Shown piece by piece: positions 18,610 to 25,515 of a stretch of 64,000 nucleotides of DNA. How positions within the stretch are numbered: the first letter of the stretch is position 1; each line of letters begins with the position of its first letter. Where the stretch lies: NCBI GenBank assembly GCA_019744775.1, contig JAIETZ010000002.1, positions 310,001 to 374,000 of the forward strand. Direction: 5' to 3'. Origin of the DNA: Candidatus Obscuribacterales bacterium. Its GTDB lineage: Bacteria; Cyanobacteriota; Vampirovibrionia; Obscuribacterales; Obscuribacteraceae. Both the position numbers and the translations under genes were made by a program. Below the pieces are notes generated by a model. The model made no database searches and was not told where the DNA came from. It saw nothing but the letters and a program-made list of their open reading frames with translations.

Positions 18610-21024
18610 ATGTTAGCTACTGGCAACCTATTACAAGGACTAAATGACCACCAAAAGACGGCGGTTAGCCTCGGCTGGGGTCCATCATTAATTGTGGCCG
18701 GCGCCGGCTCGGGTAAGACAACAGTGCTTACAAGGCGCGTTGCATATCTAATGACCGAACTTCACCAGTCGCCTGATTCCATTTTGGCCGTTACCTTTAC
18801 AAACAAAGCTGCTGAAGAAATGAAGCACCGCTTGCAAAAACTTGTTGGCGGGCACGCCAGGCATATTTTAATCGGCACCTTCCACAGCTTTTGCGCCAGA
18901 GCCCTGCGCGAAGAAATTGAAAATTACAAAAGCCCGGAAGGCTTTACCTGGAAGCACAACTTTGTCATTTACGACGAAACGGATAAACAAAGCGTTGTGA
19001 AAAATGTCGTTCAACGCCTCAATCTGGATGAAAAAGTATTCAATCCGCGTGAAATGTGCCACCGCATTTCATCACTTAAAAATGACGGCTATATGCCGGC
19101 ACGTTATGCTAATGAAGCGCGCAACTACAAAGAAACTCGCGTGGCGGAGATTTTTTCTGCTTATCAATCGGATTTGGCCAAAAACAACGCGCTTGATTTT
19201 GATGATTTAATTTTGACACTTGTCGAATTGCTCAGACAAAACATTCCGGTGCGCCGAAGATTTAGAGAACGCTTCCAACATGTTCTTGTCGATGAATTTC
19301 AAGACACCAACCAATCACAATACGAATTAATCAGGTTGATTGTCGAAGCATCCGATGAAGAGAAGCAAGCCAACCCGGCAAGCATTTGGCATGAGCGCAG
19401 TCTACTTGTAGTGGGCGATGTCGACCAGTCGATTTATTCGTGGCGCAAAGCCGATTTCCGCATCATCTTAGGCTTCCAATCTGATTTTAAAGAATCAAAA
19501 ATTGTCAAACTGGAAGACAACTACCGCTCAACGTCGACAATTCTTGAAGTAGCCAATTCAATTATTCAAAACAATACCGAGCGCATTGAAAAGGTCTTGC
19601 GTTCCAGTCGCGGAGCCGGCACCAAAGTAAAATGCTTTGAAGCGCAAGATGAAATTGACGAAGCGTATTTCGTACAAGAAGAATTAAAACGGCTTTCCGC
19701 ACGCGGCAGACAATTATCAAATTGCGTCATTCTATATAGGACGAACGCACAAAGCCGCGCCATGGAAGAAGTTTTGGTGCGTAGCCATCAACCTTACACG
19801 GTTGTGGGCGGCACGCGATTCTACGAGCGCCAAGAAATCAAAGACGTGCTAGGCTATTTAAAGCTCATCTTCAACGGTGCCGATGGACAAGCATTCATGC
19901 GCGTGATTAACACGCCGCGCCGGGGACTAGGCAAGACTACTCTGGAAAGACTTGTCTCCTTTGCCTTTGAGCGCGATTTGACACTTTTAGATGCAGCCAA
20001 AGAAATAGGCGCTGCCCAAGGCGTTTCTGAAAAATCACAAAGAGCTTTGCGTGATTTTGCCAATATGGTCAAACGCTGGCAGGCAGAAAGCACACAAACA
20101 CCTATTTCCGAGATACTCTCCGGCATTTTAAAAGAAACAGGCTATCTGGACAAATTGAAAGAAGATGCAGCACAAGGTCTTGACGAATTAGCTTCCGGCA
20201 GAATTGAGAACGTTATGGAATTGCATAACGTCGCCAAAGAATTTGAATCCATGTCGGACAAACCCGATCTGGAAGCGTTTCTTACACGTATTGCACTGGT
20301 ATCAGATATTGACCAAGCAAAAATGGACGAAGACTGCGTCAAGCTGATGACCATTCACTCAGCAAAAGGTCTGGAATTTCCAGTTGTTTTCATTCTTGGC
20401 CTAGAAGAAGGCTTATTCCCACACATGCGTTCATTGGACTCACCAAATGCAATGGAAGAGGAACGTCGCTTGATGTATGTAGCGGTAACGCGAGCAGCAG
20501 ATTTGCTTTACTTGACCTATGCTCGCAAAAGAGCTGCTTTTGGCTGGGCGACAGGCTTTTCCAATTTCACAATACCATCGCGCTTCTTGAAGGAAATTTC
20601 GCCGCAACACATGACCGGCTTTTACCCCAGTCCGGAAACACCTTCCAATGATCAAAAGGAAGATTACGATCCATGGGATGAGAGCTCCTGGGCTCCGAAG
20701 AAGAAACAACCAAGCCCTGCCCCGTCTGCTCAAAGACCGGCAGATTATGCACGTTCGTCCAAGCCTCAGGTAAAACCACGAGCTTTCCGCCAGCAAACTC
20801 CGCCGCAGCAGTCTTCTTCATGGATTGAATCCAAGCCCAAAGAAGAAAGTATTCCTTTTGAAAAACTTTCAGTGGGTGACAAAGTGCAGCATGCCAAATT
20901 TGGTATAGGAGAAGTCACCCAGATAATTGGCGACAAAGACAAAGAACTTTATAACGTGGACTTCAAGACCGAGGGCAAACGCCTCATGGACCCACGGTTT
21001 GCCAAACTAGTTAAGCTAACTTGA
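18610..21024 (+). CDS. pcrA: UvrD/PcrA-type 3'-5' DNA helicase
   Basis: This 804-residue superfamily 1A helicase unwinds DNA during repair and removes RecA filaments or stalled complexes. It has the Q motif (LNDHQ), Walker A AGAGSGKTT at 30-38, motif Ia TFTNKAA, motif II DEFQDTN, motif III GDVDQSIYSWR, motif IV NYRST, motif V TIHSAKGLEFPVVF and motif VI YVAVTRA. A flexible Pro/Ser-rich linker (about 685-750) leads to a C-terminal Tudor-like domain (VGDKVQHAKFGIGEV), which in PcrA contacts RNA polymerase. ATG follows an A/T-rich leader with no strong ribosome-binding site. A possible LexA-like operator lies upstream. Confidence 0.94.
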   Translation: MLATGNLLQGLNDHQKTAVSLGWGPSLIVAGAGSGKTTVLTRRVAYLMTELHQSPDSILAVTFTNKAAEEMKHRLQKLVGGHARHILIGTFHSFCARALREEIENYKSPEGFTWKHNFVIYDETDKQSVVKNVVQRLNLDEKVFNPREMCHRISSLKNDGYMPARYANEARNYKETRVAEIFSAYQSDLAKNNALDFDDLILTLVELLRQNIPVRRRFRERFQHVLVDEFQDTNQSQYELIRLIVEASDEEKQANPASIWHERSLLVVGDVDQSIYSWRKADFRIILGFQSDFKESKIVKLEDNYRSTSTILEVANSIIQNNTERIEKVLRSSRGAGTKVKCFEAQDEIDEAYFVQEELKRLSARGRQLSNCVILYRTNAQSRAMEEVLVRSHQPYTVVGGTRFYERQEIKDVLGYLKLIFNGADGQAFMRVINTPRRGLGKTTLERLVSFAFERDLTLLDAAKEIGAAQGVSEKSQRALRDFANMVKRWQAESTQTPISEILSGILKETGYLDKLKEDAAQGLDELASGRIENVMELHNVAKEFESMSDKPDLEAFLTRIALVSDIDQAKMDEDCVKLMTIHSAKGLEFPVVFILGLEEGLFPHMRSLDSPNAMEEERRLMYVAVTRAADLLYLTYARKRAAFGWATGFSNFTIPSRFLKEISPQHMTGFYPSPETPSNDQKEDYDPWDESSWAPKKKQPSPAPSAQRPADYARSSKPQVKPRAFRQQTPPQQSSSWIESKPKEESIPFEKLSVGDKVQHAKFGIGEVTQIIGDKDKELYNVDFKTEGKRLMDPRFAKLVKLT

Positions 21025-21061
21025 AAAGTAAGCCAATAGTCTTTTCTTCGTGATAATCATT

Positions 21062-21085
21062 TATATGTGAGTCTATATGTGAGTC
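21062..21085. repeat. perfect 12-bp tandem duplication upstream of ndk
   Basis: TATATGTGAGTC occurs twice in direct tandem (21062-21073 and 21074-21085), ending 47 bp before the ndk start. The A/T-rich half could supply -10-like sequence in both copies. Whether it is a promoter element or replication slippage cannot be decided. Confidence 0.75.
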
Positions 21086-21132
21086 AGGCATAGACGCACA
21101 TGACAAGTCCCGCCCCAAAAGGAGTAATCTCA

Positions 21133-21618
21133 GTGGCAGACACAGAAAAGACATTTGTCGCAATAAAACCAGACGGCGTACAGCGCGGTCTTGTCGGTGA
21201 AATCATCGGTCGTTTTGAAAAGCGTGGACTGAAGCTAGTCGGCTTGAAGCTCCTCAAAGTTCCACAAGAAATGGCAGAAAAGCATTACGGTGAGCACAAA
21301 GGCAAACCATTTTTTGAAGGTTTGGTCAGTTTCATAACCTCAGGACCAATAGTTGCAATGGTCTGGGAAGGCAAAGGCGCAATTGCCTTAACACGCACAA
21401 TCATCGGTTCAACAAACCCGGCACAAGCTGCTCCCGGCACCATCCGCGGCGACCTCGCTCTGGATATCGGCCGCAACGTAGTCCATGCATCCGATGGTCC
21501 GGAAAGTGCTCCTCGCGAAATCGGCATCTTCTTCAACAACAATGAAGTAATCGGTTGCTGGTCGCGCAATATCGATCCATGGGTTGTTGAACAACCACTT
21601 ACTTGCGCTTCTAAATAA
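21133..21618 (+). CDS. ndk: nucleoside diphosphate kinase
   Basis: Ndk transfers the gamma phosphate between nucleoside triphosphates and diphosphates through a phospho-His intermediate. GTG at 21133 is chosen because AAGGAG lies 8 nt before it and because numbering from there puts Lys at 12 and the catalytic His at 118 in NVVHASDG, exactly as in the family. An upstream ATG at 21100 would add 11 unconserved residues. The protein has 161 residues, slightly longer than usual because of a C-terminal tail. A strong hairpin terminator follows. Confidence 0.95.
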
Positions 21619-21636
21619 GTAAGTAAACTCAACTCT

Positions 21637-21670
21637 AAAAACGCGCGGCTCAACACGCTGCGCGTTTTTT
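21637..21670. terminator. bidirectional rho-independent terminator between ndk and the GT9 gene
   Basis: AAAAACGCGC (21637-21646) pairs with GCGCGTTTTT (21660-21669), followed by T and A/T-rich sequence. The A-run on the left makes it usable on the minus strand too, and the stop codon of the convergent glycosyltransferase lies inside its right arm. Confidence 0.88.
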
Positions 21671-22745
21671 ATTGGAGCAAAAGATCGTTAACAGAACGCA
21701 TGACTTCATTAGCCGAAAGCTCTTCCAGACAGGCATTTGTAGACAGCGGACAAATGGCTTCAAAACACGGCTGACAGGACAGATGCAAACTGACCGCCCG
21801 GGACTGCGGACCTAATGGTTCCAAACGCTTATACGGAGTAGCTCCAAAAATACCTACTACTTTGGGCATGCCCACAGCAGCAGCTAGATGCATCGGTCCG
21901 CTGTCTAATCCAATTACAAGGCGGCTTTTTTGGTAGAGCGCAATTAAGTCAAGCAAACTGGTTTCACCGGTGACATCCAACACCTGTATGCCACCACTTT
22001 TAAGAGAATCGGCAATCGCAGAATTCGTTTTCTTCTCGGATGGCCCACCGGCAAGAATTAACGGCATACGAATTTCGCATAACTTTCCAGCTAAATCAAT
22101 CCATTTTTGGCTGGTCCAAATCTTGGAAGTCCATGTTGTGCCGGGTAAAAGTACAGCAACGTTAGATTGCCCAGTTAGCAACTTGTCTATTTTTTGTCGC
22201 GAAGTTTCCGGAATCTCCGGAAGCGGGAATTCAATTTCCTCATCTTTAATTGTGGGGGCAAGGCCAAGTGTCCGAAATAAATAGGAAGCAATCTCCAAAT
22301 TGACACGCACAATGTGTTTATCAAGAGCAAAGTAATTTCCGACTTCAACCTTATCGGTCAAAAACAGCCCGGCGCCTTCTCTGGTATGGGAAAAACCAAT
22401 TCGCTTGGGAGCACCGGATGCCACCGTGCATAGTGCGCTCTTCAATAAACCCTGCATGTCTAAAACAACATCGTAGTTTTTGTTTCTGATATCACTCCAA
22501 AAAGCATGTGCTTCCTGGGCGACGGATGCCCAATTTAGAGGCGAGGCAAGCTTTTTGATCCACCCTTTGCGCGGCAAGACAAACACTTCATCAACAGCTG
22601 GATTGTTGGTAACAAGTGGTGCGCTCATCGGCTCAACCACCCAGCCGATCTGGGCTTCAGGGATGCGACGCTTGATGGCAGCCGCCACAGGCAAGCTGTG
22701 AATGGTATCGCCAATGGCACTAAGTCTGATAATTAGGACTTTCAC
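21669..22745 (-). CDS. lipopolysaccharide heptosyltransferase (GT9, WaaC-like)
   Basis: This 358-residue enzyme starts with the GT9 signature MKVLIIRLSAIGDTIHSLPV. It contains the acceptor-side DMQGLLKSAL segment, LLPGTTWTSKIW, AGGPSEKK and the donor motif LVIGLDSGPMHLAAAVG. Members add L-glycero-D-manno-heptose from ADP-heptose to the Kdo or heptose of the inner LPS core. This supports an organism with an outer membrane. The Cys-rich CQPCFEAICPLSTNACL stretch near the end is common in the family. The start at ATG 22745 is fixed by the motif. The gene is alone, divergent from the RHH protein gene. Confidence 0.9.
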   Translation of the reverse strand: MKVLIIRLSAIGDTIHSLPVAAAIKRRIPEAQIGWVVEPMSAPLVTNNPAVDEVFVLPRKGWIKKLASPLNWASVAQEAHAFWSDIRNKNYDVVLDMQGLLKSALCTVASGAPKRIGFSHTREGAGLFLTDKVEVGNYFALDKHIVRVNLEIASYLFRTLGLAPTIKDEEIEFPLPEIPETSRQKIDKLLTGQSNVAVLLPGTTWTSKIWTSQKWIDLAGKLCEIRMPLILAGGPSEKKTNSAIADSLKSGGIQVLDVTGETSLLDLIALYQKSRLVIGLDSGPMHLAAAVGMPKVVGIFGATPYKRLEPLGPQSRAVSLHLSCQPCFEAICPLSTNACLEELSANEVMRSVNDLLLQ

Positions 22746-23096
22746 AATGTTCCTCTAACCACAAATTGTAGCTGGTAGCGCCTTTTTGGCGATCTTACCA
22801 CCGTCGATGGTGCCATACGCCTGTAAGGCACCACTCGATTATGGGCAGAAATATTACCGATGATTACGAGTGATACCAGCCATTAAATGTGGTGCGGCAC
22901 CACCGGTGAAGGCACGGCAAAAGCCTCATCCAGCAAGCGTTTCGGGACTCGCGCCACCATATATACACCATGATCATATGTGGATATTTAACTGATGGAA
23001 TGTTCGCGCCACCTTAGGTAGTGGTATTAATATAGCAACCACATTCAATTGGGGCACCACAAAATATCCAAGGTGCCCTATCAAGAGGAAAATACG
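22746..23096. promoter_or_regulatory. 351-bp intergenic region with repeated GGTGCC/GGCACC inverted repeats
   Basis: No gene is visible. Three inverted repeats share a GGTGC/GCACC core: TGGTGCC-A-TAC/GTA-A-GGCACCA (22808-22833), GTGGTGC-G-GCACCAC (22889-22903) and GGGCACC/GGTGCCC (23052-23078). TCGCGCCACC occurs as a direct repeat at 22949-22958 and 23004-23013. The last inverted repeat ends 18 nt before the ATG of the ribbon-helix-helix protein gene, a good position for autoregulation. Confidence 0.55.
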
Positions 23097-23351
23097 ATGG
23101 CCGTAAAAAGAAAAGCAAAAAGACCGGCTGCAAGAAAGCCAGCAAAAAAGGCACCAGCCCGTAAGGCTTCCAAGTCCACAATGAGAGCAAGCAGAGCCCA
23201 TGAATCAGGCGGCAGCTACCTCAAGTACAGTGGCAAGTTCACCGTCCGTCTGCCGAGATCCCTGCACCAAGCATTGGTCAGCAGAGCAGAAAGAGAAGGT
23301 GTGAGCCTCAACTTGTTTGTCACAAACGCTCTTTCGCGCACCGTCAAATAA
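23097..23351 (+). CDS. ribbon-helix-helix protein with a histone-like basic N-terminal tail
   Basis: The 84-residue protein has two parts. Residues 1-38 are dominated by Lys, Arg, Ala and Pro (KRPAARKPAKKAPARKASK), like histone H1 or AlgP tails. Residues 42-84 match the C-terminal RHH domain of HicB-type antitoxins: strand GKFTVRLP, helix SLHQALVSRAEREG, then SLNLFVTNALSRT. It probably binds DNA as a dimer, with the tail adding non-specific contacts. ATG at 23097 is preceded by AAGAGGA. No HicA-like toxin gene is adjacent, so a classical toxin-antitoxin pair is not supported. A strong terminator follows, so it forms a single-gene unit. Confidence 0.85.
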   Translation: MAVKRKAKRPAARKPAKKAPARKASKSTMRASRAHESGGSYLKYSGKFTVRLPRSLHQALVSRAEREGVSLNLFVTNALSRTVK

Positions 23352-23370
23352 GCATTAGCTATGACCCGAA

Positions 23371-23408
23371 AAAATGCCAGGTTCCGAAAGGACCTGGCAT
23401 TTTTCTTT
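23371..23408 (+). terminator. rho-independent terminator after the RHH gene
   Basis: AAAATGCCAGGTTCC pairs with GGACCTGGCATTTT across a GAAA tetraloop with one bulged T, followed by a T-rich tract. It separates this gene from the amino-sugar operon. Confidence 0.9.
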
Positions 23409-23477
23409 CTATCCATTACGTAAATCTAACTGCGCGAGAGATGAACCTTATCAGGAGCAACTTTGAGTCCAATGTCT

Positions 23478-23532
23478 AATAAGTTAGACTTTCAAAGTCC
23501 TACTTATTGTCGTCAAGAGATAAGTAAGTAGG
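23478..23532 (+). promoter_or_regulatory. two mutually exclusive hairpins in the leader of the amino-sugar operon
   Basis: Hairpin 1 pairs AATAAGT (23478-23484) and GACTTT (23487-23492) with AAAGTC (23494-23499) and ACTTATT (23502-23508). Hairpin 2 pairs CCTACTTA (23499-23506), which is part of the right arm of hairpin 1, with TAAGTAGG (23525-23532). Only one can form at a time. No T-run follows, so a translational switch or a protein-binding repeat is more likely than classical attenuation. Confidence 0.4.
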
Positions 23533-23567
23533 CCTTGTTGACAACCTCCCGCAACGAGAGAAGCGTA

Positions 23568-24758
23568 ATGACTCAAGCAACACAAAAGGTTCCAGTTCTC
23601 GGACTCAAGGAACAGTACCAGCCCATCGCCGACGAATTAGAGGCAAATGTCTTAGCAGTACTTAGAAGCGGCAACTACATTCTGGGCGAGCACGTGAAGG
23701 GTCTAGAGGGCGAGGTTGCCAAGCTGTCCAGCGCACAAGAAGCAGTCGGGGTTGCCAATGGAACCGACGCTTTAATACTTGCTCTCTGGGCACTCGATAT
23801 AGGCCCCGGCGATGAAGTTATCACATCTCCTTTCACCTTTGCGGCCACTGTTGAGGCTATCGCCATACGCGGAGCAAAGCCGGTTTTTGTCGACATCGAC
23901 CCGGACACATTCAACATCAACACCAAACAAATTGAAGCCGTCATCACCAAAAAGACCAAAGCCATTTTGCCGGTGCACTTGTACGGTCATCCGGCAGACA
24001 TGGATCCAATCATGGAGCTGGCGAAAAAGTACAAACTCTTCGTTATCGAAGACAACGCTCAAGCAATTGCCGCCACCTACAAAGGCAAAACGACAGGCAG
24101 CTTCGGTGATGTCGGCTGCATAAGTTTCTACCCGACCAAAAACCTTGGCGCGGCAGGAGATGCCGGCATGGTCACCGCCAACAACAAAGATGTTGCCGAC
24201 AGATTGAGAAAATTGCGCGCGCACGGCATGTGGGTTCGCTACTATCACGATGAGCTAGGCGTAAATAGCAGACTGGATGAAATTCAAGCCGTAATTCTGC
24301 GCACTAAGCTCAAGCATTTGTCCAAGTGGAATGACAGAAGAAGACAAATTGCCAATCTGTACGAAACACTATTGAAAAATTGCCCGGGTATTACTTTGCC
24401 CAAGACAAGCACAGATGTCACACATGTGTTTCACCAATATACAATCCGTGTGCACAACAACAACAAGACCGAGACAAAAGGTAGAGATGTTCTGCAAGCA
24501 AAACTAGCAGAATCCGGTATCGGCTCCATGATTTATTACCCGGTACCGCTGCATCTGCAAAAGGCCTTCAGCCAATACGGTTATGCTGAAGGCGACTTCC
24601 CTGTAACTGAATTAGTTTCCGATGAAGTACTTTCGCTGCCTATGTATCCGGAATTAACCGATGCGCAAGTGAAATTGGTTGCCGAGTCAATCAAGACCAT
24701 ACTCAACGCGCCGGCAACCGCTCCGGCTGTATCGCAACCAGTTGCAGGAACAGTTTAA
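23568..24758 (+). CDS. DegT/DnrJ/EryC1/StrS-family sugar aminotransferase
   Basis: This PLP-dependent enzyme transaminates a nucleotide-linked keto-sugar, giving an amino sugar for surface glycans. The motifs are clear: the NGTDAL phosphate loop, SPFTFAAT, FVDIDPDTFNI, HLYGHPADMD, the PLP-binding Asp162 in VIEDNAQA, and the Schiff-base Lys191 in FYPTKNLGA followed by GDAGM. ATG at 23568 is chosen because the domain starts there; a TTG at 23535 would add a non-conserved leader. The next gene, an acetyltransferase, begins 1 nt after the stop codon, which fits sequential amination and N-acetylation in the style of WbpE-WbpD or FdtB-FdtC. Confidence 0.92.
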   Translation: MTQATQKVPVLGLKEQYQPIADELEANVLAVLRSGNYILGEHVKGLEGEVAKLSSAQEAVGVANGTDALILALWALDIGPGDEVITSPFTFAATVEAIAIRGAKPVFVDIDPDTFNINTKQIEAVITKKTKAILPVHLYGHPADMDPIMELAKKYKLFVIEDNAQAIAATYKGKTTGSFGDVGCISFYPTKNLGAAGDAGMVTANNKDVADRLRKLRAHGMWVRYYHDELGVNSRLDEIQAVILRTKLKHLSKWNDRRRQIANLYETLLKNCPGITLPKTSTDVTHVFHQYTIRVHNNNKTETKGRDVLQAKLAESGIGSMIYYPVPLHLQKAFSQYGYAEGDFPVTELVSDEVLSLPMYPELTDAQVKLVAESIKTILNAPATAPAVSQPVAGTV

Positions 24759-24759
24759 G

Positions 24760-25515
24760 ATGAGTATTGACGCAAGTGTCAAATTAGGCAAAGGAACAAA
24801 TATTGCTTCCGATGCGTTTATTGGCAAAGGCTCAGTAATTGGTGACAATGTCGTAATTGAACCCGGGGTCGTCATTTACGAAAATGTAAAAATTGGCGCC
24901 AACACTTACATCGGCGCTCAATGCATTTTGGGTGAAAGAGTTTTTGGATTCAACACGGATCCTAATTATGCAAACCCGGAACTCTCAATTGGACCAAACA
25001 GCACCATACGCTCGGGAACAATTATCTACGCCGGTTGCACAATGGGTGAAAAATTCCAGACAGGACACCGTGCCTGCATTCGTGAATACAGCCATTTCGG
25101 CACTAATTGCGCCTTCGGCACAATGTCGCAATCCGATGGTCAAATAAAAGTTGGAAACGATTGTCGCTTCCACAACAATGTCTTCATTGCCACATTCACG
25201 ACAATTGAAGACGATGTGCACTTCTATCCGATGTCTTGCACAACGGACAGCTTGCACCCACCATGCCAAAAAGGCCGTCAAGGACCATATGTGGAAAAAG
25301 GCGCCATAATTTGCGCCCGCGTTCTTTTGCTACCGCGCGTTCGTATCGGCGCAGGCGCAGTTGTTGCAGGCGGCTCAGTTGTTAGCCATGACGTTCCGGC
25401 AAACATGATTGCCGCAGGCAATCCGGCAAAAGTCGTCAAAGCAAAAGATGCCGTCCGTTGCCACTTAGAAGATCGTCCCGCCTGGGAAGTCGCCCTGGAA
25501 TCCGTAAAGTCCTAA
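24760..25515 (+). CDS. left-handed beta-helix (hexapeptide-repeat) sugar N-acyltransferase
   Basis: The 251-residue protein is built of isoleucine-rich hexapeptide repeats (for example VIGDNVVIEPGVVIYENVKIGANTYIG split across two blocks, and VRIGAGAVVAGGSVV) that form the trimeric left-handed beta helix. It probably N-acetylates the amino sugar made by the preceding DegT enzyme, using acetyl-CoA. The TGHRACIRE region may carry the catalytic His. ATG at 24760 lies directly after the aminotransferase stop, indicating translational coupling; longer in-frame starts would overlap that gene. Substrate identity is not encoded in any motif visible here. Confidence 0.88.
   Translation: MSIDASVKLGKGTNIASDAFIGKGSVIGDNVVIEPGVVIYENVKIGANTYIGAQCILGERVFGFNTDPNYANPELSIGPNSTIRSGTIIYAGCTMGEKFQTGHRACIREYSHFGTNCAFGTMSQSDGQIKVGNDCRFHNNVFIATFTTIEDDVHFYPMSCTTDSLHPPCQKGRQGPYVEKGAIICARVLLLPRVRIGAGAVVAGGSVVSHDVPANMIAAGNPAKVVKAKDAVRCHLEDRPAWEVALESVKS

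Follow-up and report, generated by a model that had tools for sequence, protein, structure and literature searches.

Predicted autoregulatory operators of a tailed, HicB-type ribbon-helix-helix gene in an order of non-photosynthetic cyanobacterial relatives

Results

A dense motif array in a divergent intergenic gap

The whole stretch of DNA that was analyzed, referred to as the window, is 64 kb long and belongs to a genome of 4.1 Mb in 13 contigs. Positions 22746-23096 of the window form a 351-bp divergent intergenic gap between a gene on the reverse strand encoding a glycosyltransferase of family 9 (GT9, heptosyltransferase; 21669..22745; PF01075, E 2.6e-44) and a gene on the forward strand encoding an 84-residue-long ribbon-helix-helix (RHH) protein (23097..23351), in which a basic tail rich in K, R, A, and P is joined to a HicB-type RHH domain. 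The RHH gene is followed on the same strand by a stem-loop that resembles an intrinsic terminator (23370..23404), with 15 pairs and a T-rich tail, which suggests a one-gene transcript. The downstream neighbor, also on the forward strand, encodes a DegT/DnrJ/EryC1 aminotransferase (23568..24758; PF01041, E 3.5e-125).

A sequence-only reading of the window had described the gap as an array of GGTGCC/GGCACC inverted repeats and a direct repeat, more densely packed than any other intergenic region. The repeats lie where it placed them. The inverted repeats are TGGTGCCATACGCCTGTAAGGCACCA at 22808-22833, GTGGTGCGGCACCAC at 22889-22903, and GGGCACC...GGTGCCC at 23052-23078, and the copies of the direct repeat TCGCGCCACC occupy positions 22949-22958 and 23004-23013. 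The distance from the end of the third inverted repeat to the ATG of the RHH gene at 23097 is 18 nucleotides, as the same reading had counted.

The density of the motifs is borne out as well. The gap contains five copies of GGTGCC and GGCACC, compared to a mean of 0.27, and none of 2000 dinucleotide shuffles reaches five. Six related 6-mers of the GGTG/CACC type occur 11 times, compared to 0.8 expected (0 of 2000 shuffles), and nowhere else in the window does an intergenic gap hold more than three. The comparison was widened to 864 kb of the genome, composed of the window and 40 stretches of 20 kb, with gaps set by a simple longest-ORF rule. Among the 341 intergenic gaps of at least 60 bp in this sample, the gap ranks first in density; one runner-up contains nine of the 6-mers, one contains five, and the remainder three or fewer. 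The gap with five motifs, in L079, was rejected as an intergenic cluster, because inspection showed it to be coding. Exact inverted repeats with 6-bp arms number eight in the gap, compared to 4.2 in shuffles, 51 of 500 of which reach eight; there are three with 7-bp arms, compared to 1.2 (76 of 500 shuffles), and none with 8-bp arms. Inverted repeats as such are in mild excess, and the unusual feature of the gap is the density of the motif, not the number of hairpins.

An RHH protein with a basic tail

The RHH domain belongs to the Pfam family HicB (PF05534, E 2.9e-12, 46.7 bits compared to a cut-off of 21) and is made up of the strand SGKFTVRLP and two helices. This core is nearly invariant over 48 orthologs, in all of which the strand SGKFTVRLP is unchanged. 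The tail, residues 1-44, is of low complexity and contains 15 K and R and a single D or E. It has no Pfam match at E values up to 0.1, and its match to the NCBIfam family Rv3852_fam is weak (E 0.0099, 16.4 bits compared to a cut-off of 100). The tails of 47 orthologs are 24-97 residues long, with a median of 62, and consist of 27-35% K and R (30% overall) and 3% D and E. A structure model with a mean pLDDT of only 65 shows two helices, 54-67 and 71-82, as its sole secondary-structure elements, and a sequence search of solved structures returned no match at E 0.1.

Of the 53 genomes examined from the order, 48 carry the RHH gene, among them all 22 that are near-complete. Among 21 class-level genomes, there is one match to the RHH protein, which is a longer HicB preceded by a HicA-like gene (PF07927, E 4.9e-5, 23.8 bits, under the cut-off of 27). 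A GT9 match was found at 41 of the 48 RHH loci and a DegT match at 47. The upstream sequence of the seven loci without GT9 is 12-323 bp long in five, 883 bp in L004, and 1476 bp in L013. No hicA lies next to the tailed RHH gene, the neighbors of which are the GT9 and DegT genes. No relatives of HicB were confirmed in viral contigs.

Two upstream elements conserved with the gene

The upstream regions of 45 orthologs were examined, of which 44 were testable, the one from L048 being too short. A motif similar to GATACCAGCCATTAAA (at most four edits) is present in all 44, with GRTAYCAGCCAT intact in 40. The first part of the GRTAYCAGCCAT motif is the box TGATACCA (22871..22878, forward strand), which is a perfect HicB-type box and scores 11.7 bits on the box model of HicB operons described below. 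This box is conserved just 5' of the middle inverted repeat and was absent from the earlier reading. The palindrome GTGGTGCGGCACCAC (22889..22903, forward strand) follows, and its right box CGGCACCA at 22895-22902 is spaced 24 bp, twice 12, from the TGATACCA box. Among the 44 upstreams, 40 have [TC]GGTGC after the motif and 32 have GGTGC-N0-2-GCACC there, the palindrome being incomplete in the other 12. The distance of the distal motif from the ATG of the RHH gene is 225-384 bp, and that from the divergent gene reaches 983 bp. In two genera, GATACC within the element is inverted to its reverse complement GGTATC (9 rows compared to 30), which fits a DNA site rather than an RNA.

The proximal element consists of an extended -10 with GCCAC six bases further on. 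It is found by score in 43 of the 44 testable upstreams, and the diverged L011 is the single exception. The hexamer TGGAAT (22996..23001, forward strand) is the putative -10 of the window, as judged from the orthologous upstreams, most of which have TACAAT or TAGAAT preceded by TGG or TGA; a sigma-70 scan of the window did not detect TGGAAT. Directly after the -10 lies the pair CGCCACCT-TAGG-TAGTGGTA (23007..23026, forward strand), two 8-bp boxes 12 bp apart, for which the consensus of the orthologs is TGCCACYT-NNNR-TGGTGGTA. TGCCACYT and TGGT are both intact 12 bp apart in 37 of 43 proximal elements, and the full TGGTGGTA is present in 28. The six elements that are not intact include those of the window, the sibling locus L003, and three genomes of a second family. 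The pair of the window is degenerate, and scores less than 3 bits on the HicB-operon model.

Composite patterns of the two elements were searched for in 40 genomes, 27 of the order and 13 class-level. The distal composite is present in 21 of the 27 genomes of the order, at the gene in 19 and on another contig in G001 and G018, two assemblies in which the contig that carries the gene begins at the gene. The proximal composite is present in 22 of the 27, with the copy of G018 again on another contig. Neither composite was found in the 13 class-level genomes. Five extra distal and four extra proximal matches are all at the mismatch limit, and one of the extra distal matches is the only distal match of G038. 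The genomes missed are those in which the gene was not found, those with diverged copies, and, for the proximal composite, G001. Both composites are nearly single-copy.

The remaining repeats of the gap are specific to narrower lineages. Two of the features listed by the sequence-only reading are conserved, namely the second of its three inverted repeats and the position at which the second TCGCGCCACC copy lies; the first and third inverted repeats are not. A GGTGCC-N5-20-GGCACC repeat of the first type (TGGTGCC...GGCACCA at 22808..22833, forward strand) is present in three of 44 upstreams, those of the window, L003, and L018 from another genus. The third repeat, GGGCACC...GGTGCCC (23052..23078, forward strand), which lies in the leader and could form a 9-bp RNA hairpin, and TCGCGCCACC itself are each found in one of 44, that of the window. 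Instead of the GGTGCC/GGCACC inverted repeat that had been put forward, the unit of the array looks like an 8-bp near-palindromic box, TGRTAYCA or TGGTGSCA. Box TGGTGCCA at 22808 is 12 bp from TACCACCG at 22796, and the first TCGCGCCACC copy (22949..22958, forward strand) provides box CGCCACCA at 22952-22959, where L003 has TCATGCCACCA. A de novo count of k-mers with one upstream per genus (22 genera) ranks CACC/GGTG, ACCA/TGGT, and CCAC/GTGG highest. After masking of both conserved elements, GCCACC/GGTGGC (23 compared to 3.2) and GGCACC/GGTGCC (21 compared to 3.2) are still enriched, so that additional boxes seem to come and go around a core that stays in place. A 12-bp rule for the whole array was rejected outside the conserved blocks, where the masked set contains one pair at 12 bp; inside them, a spacing of 19 bp (14 pairs) is as common as one of 12 bp (15 pairs).

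A two-box code upstream of HicB operons

The upstreams of HicB operons that were compared come from cyanobacteria, Thermus, Treponema, Bacillota, Rhodococcus, proteobacteria, and phages, and none is from this order. Seven loci were used from a first set of 30, in which 19 lacked the strand pattern and four had no hicA-like ORF called. A second set of 15 provided 13 loci after two of the PIN type were left out; in L236 and L243 no gene was called before hicB, and in L241 a hypothetical protein stands there. Boxes of 8 bp resembling TGRTAYCA are paired 12 bp apart in 19 of these 20 upstreams, which represent several phyla, and 14 of the 18 box pairs within 5-40 bp are spaced by exactly 12 bp. 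EM with a width of 20 and palindromic symmetry, both picked after the pairs had been noticed by eye, yielded TGGTATCATATATGATACCA, i.e., TGGTATCA-TATA-TGATACCA. All but one of the 20 sites score more than 15 bits; the exception is the site from Nitrosococcus with 4.8 bits. The class-level relative has TGGTGTTA-TATA-TGCCACCA-AATG-TGGTATCA 5' of its HicA-like gene, and Moorella has TGGTGGCA-TATT-TGATACCA 5' of hicA (PF07927, E 7.2e-9). The result is a compact operator code for RHH-type HicB proteins that is open to test. No statement of it was found in the part of the open literature that was searched.

In the cyanobacterial plasmid loci L244 and L245, operons of PIN-family toxins are paired with a related RHH protein, and L245 has TGGTGCTA-TAG-TGGTGTCA, with a spacing of 11 bp, near the start of the operon.

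When the 20-mer model of HicB operons is applied to the orthologous upstreams, they average 9.4 bits, compared to 2.4 bits for random segments of their own genomes, which are mostly coding DNA; 17 of 44 exceed the 95th percentile of this control, and one exceeds the 99th (15.6 bits). Single boxes are more widespread. One of at least 11.7 bits is present in 40 of 44 upstreams, compared to 4% of random 420-bp segments at 11.6 bits or more, and one of at least 8.3 bits is present in all 44, compared to 21% of such segments. The 20-mer that scores best in the whole window (15.4 bits, at 22703) falls in the coding start of the neighboring gene, the third best is at 22796-22815 in the gap (11.2 bits), and the best 20-mers of many orthologs fall outside both conserved elements.

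The genome also has an operon at L082 13111-13697 (contig C5) that encodes a HicB (PF05534, E 9.3e-16) with the strand SGEFRVRIPP. The ORF that precedes hicB, the first of the operon, has no Pfam, NCBIfam, or PADLOC match and aligns to the HicA of Moorella at 27%, so that it is called no more than HicA-like. The pair TGGTACCA-ATAG-TGGCACCA lies directly before this ORF.

Candidate second target and sites across the genome

With regard to the motif being common elsewhere, the composite elements are not, but the GGTG/CACC motifs form a second dense cluster at L091 18241-18927 (contig C11 188241-188927), in the gap between genes for a Flp/Tad-type secretin (PF00263, PF13629) and an OmpR-type response regulator. 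The corresponding secretin gaps are enriched in the 6-mers relative to shuffles at all three loci of the same genus and in genera g2, g3, and g9 (0 of 500 shuffles each) and g5 (1 of 500); the other 12 of the 19 loci tested are not enriched. Of 20 loci, 13 carry an element similar to GGCACCAAATATGGTTGTC 5' of the secretin gene; its consensus includes ACCA-N4-TGGT, and none of 200 mononucleotide shuffles does as well, the consensus having been derived from the same set of loci as was tested. The 19 and 20 loci were taken from 30 gathered, the others having been dropped by hand, most of them for want of a scored upstream gap. The secretin/response-regulator gap is a candidate second target, partly conserved, as judged from its sequence.

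Two further sites of the genome sample resemble HicB-type operators. L077 15372-15391 is a site of 20.2 bits, TGATACTAAATATGGTGGCA, between two divergent TadE/G-like genes, and L061 18083-18102 is the top-scoring intergenic HicB-type site of the sample, TGACACCATAAGTGGTGTCA, located among short ORFs of unknown kind.

Model hits in the sample of the host genome are intergenic in three of five cases at 19 bits or more, five of 20 at 15 bits, and nine of 67 at 11 bits, with 9% of the sample being intergenic. Among the matches listed from searches of the genome for box pairs, 70 loci, some of which overlap, were screened, and only the gap upstream of the RHH gene contains three or more of the 6-mers within 300 intergenic bases; the secretin gap was matched in these searches but is outside the 70. 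The L079 pair, taken as intergenic, proved to be coding on inspection.

The two-box pattern looked about 4 to 49 times enriched relative to the reversed pattern in 24 genomes of family f1, in 21 of which pairs spaced by 12 bp outnumber those spaced by 15 bp (2906 compared to 1758, ratio 1.65). The respective numbers are 95 and 95 in 13 class-level genomes, 47 and 56 in the host genome, and 64 and 74 in three genomes of the second family. The sample of the host genome contains 35 pairs at 12 bp and 32 at 15 bp, with no excess over codon-phase spacings. A genome-wide excess of sites, of the kind that a chromatin-type role would entail, is not supported: most of the enrichment disappears under the control of same-phase spacing. 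In 800 kb of G007 contig C9 (L276-L315), coding TGRYRYCA pairs number 27 at 12 bp, 16 at 15 bp, and 14 at 18 bp, and intergenic ones two, two, and zero.

Discussion

The array probably controls the tailed RHH gene, and its boxes are predicted to be operators through which an exapted HicB RHH domain regulates its own gene. HicB-type boxes are located at the RHH gene's own promoter and are conserved with the gene, even though the proximal copy of the window is degenerate. Autoregulation by the RHH protein, which the sequence-only reading had suggested, is favored because the elements are kept with the gene across two families, are nearly single-copy, and resemble the box code of HicB operons; what that reading took for the repeat unit, and which repeats it held to matter, have been corrected. 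The layout is kept in an order of non-photosynthetic cyanobacterial relatives and, as far as its sequence tells, looks like the switches of toxin-antitoxin genes.

In the proposed mechanism, dimers of the tailed RHH protein would bind the 8-bp near-palindromic boxes TGRTAYCA and TGGTGSCA. Binding to the proximal pair, which covers the predicted start site just after the -10, would block RNA polymerase, and the distal element may increase occupancy nearby, or form a bridge with the proximal pair, through cooperative binding. Additional lineage-specific boxes may contribute further binding, and the basic tail may raise the affinity for DNA. The predicted outcome is negative autoregulation. This shut-off of the promoter by a tailed RHH dimer is proposed by analogy with published HicB operators and with the isolated RHH domain. 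According to the accessible part of PMC11594946, HicB represses its own operon, with operators that overlap the -10 in Yersinia pestis and Burkholderia pseudomallei, and of the five characterized HicAB systems compared there, two have no known specific binding site. As far as the available portion of PMC6327479 goes, the isolated RHH domain of Sinorhizobium meliloti HicB equals the full-length protein in binding to the operator. Autorepression by HicB is also described in the accessible text of PMC10865869, and the corresponding text of PMC4848639 on hicAB of Pseudomonas aeruginosa gives no operator.

The boxes might instead be operators of a different regulator, another HicB or RHH protein, with the tailed RHH gene as merely one of its targets. 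The other HicB of the genome could bind the same boxes, given that its operon carries the same box code, and the second dense cluster at the secretin/response-regulator gap also speaks for this explanation. However, a second match to the RHH query, a candidate for another hicB, was found in only three of 53 genomes of the order, compared to 48 with the tailed gene, by a query that is not sensitive for all HicBs, and the distal motif accompanies the tailed gene in 44 of 44 testable upstreams. This explanation is unlikely.

Two further readings each have only a slim probability. If the distal element served the divergent heptosyltransferase gene, the array would be two unrelated regulatory regions back to back. 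The called GT9 start and the motif are 46-75 bp apart in 14 of 41 loci; however, in seven loci, all from one genus, this distance grows to 610-983 bp and the motif is still 289-293 bp from the start of the RHH gene. Such a back-to-back arrangement is very improbable. At least as improbable is that the repeats act in an RNA leader, where a 5'-terminal hairpin, or one ahead of the ribosome site, would set translation or stability. Only 4 of 200 shuffles fold as well as the leader 23007-23096 (z -2.6), the 9-bp hairpin of the third inverted repeat is close to the start codon, and the proximal element keeps most of its hairpin pairs. Nevertheless, a given hairpin pair is lost in as many as 12 of 43 proximal elements, whereas TGGT is intact in 40, the third repeat is confined to one of 44 upstreams, the distal element lies 5' of the putative promoter, and the flips between GATACC and GGTATC are unsuited to RNA. 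The three Rfam matches in 21000-25000 (E 0.1-0.15) are all under the gathering scores and outside the gap, and no hairpin that compensating changes would keep was evident.

In the favored reading, HicB antitoxins are the probable source of both the RHH domain and its operator code, with the direction of descent being inferred. The tailed gene would then be a worked case of the domain of an addiction-module antitoxin turned into a fixed chromosomal regulator. A more far-reaching and doubtful scenario is that the order took the DNA-binding half of HicB, swapped the toxin-binding half for a histone H1-like tail, kept the operator code of hicAB, and made the protein a core regulator with the Flp/Tad-type secretin, and perhaps other Tad genes, as a second target. 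Nothing on such a protein was found in the titles and abstract openings of the part of the open literature on this lineage that was covered.

The tailed RHH protein shares the Pfam HicB RHH domain with the HicB proteins of hicAB systems, such as HicB3 of Y. pestis and those of B. pseudomallei, Streptococcus pneumoniae, and S. meliloti. The likeness extends to the two-box operator code and to its site at the promoter, the latter as published, in the accessible text, for two of these systems. Unlike hicAB, the tailed protein has a basic tail instead of a domain before the RHH, and its gene has no hicA neighbor, an extra distal element, and the same neighbors throughout an order. The RHH autorepressors MetJ, Arc, CopG, and NikR are small dimeric proteins that repress their own promoters via repeated short boxes. 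The tailed RHH protein would be expected to behave alike, with a box sequence and a 12-bp spacing that are of the HicB type. Bacterial histone H1-like proteins have K/A/P-rich tails similar in composition to the tail described here; by contrast, the RHH core sets the tailed protein apart from them, and a genome-wide excess of sites is not supported here.
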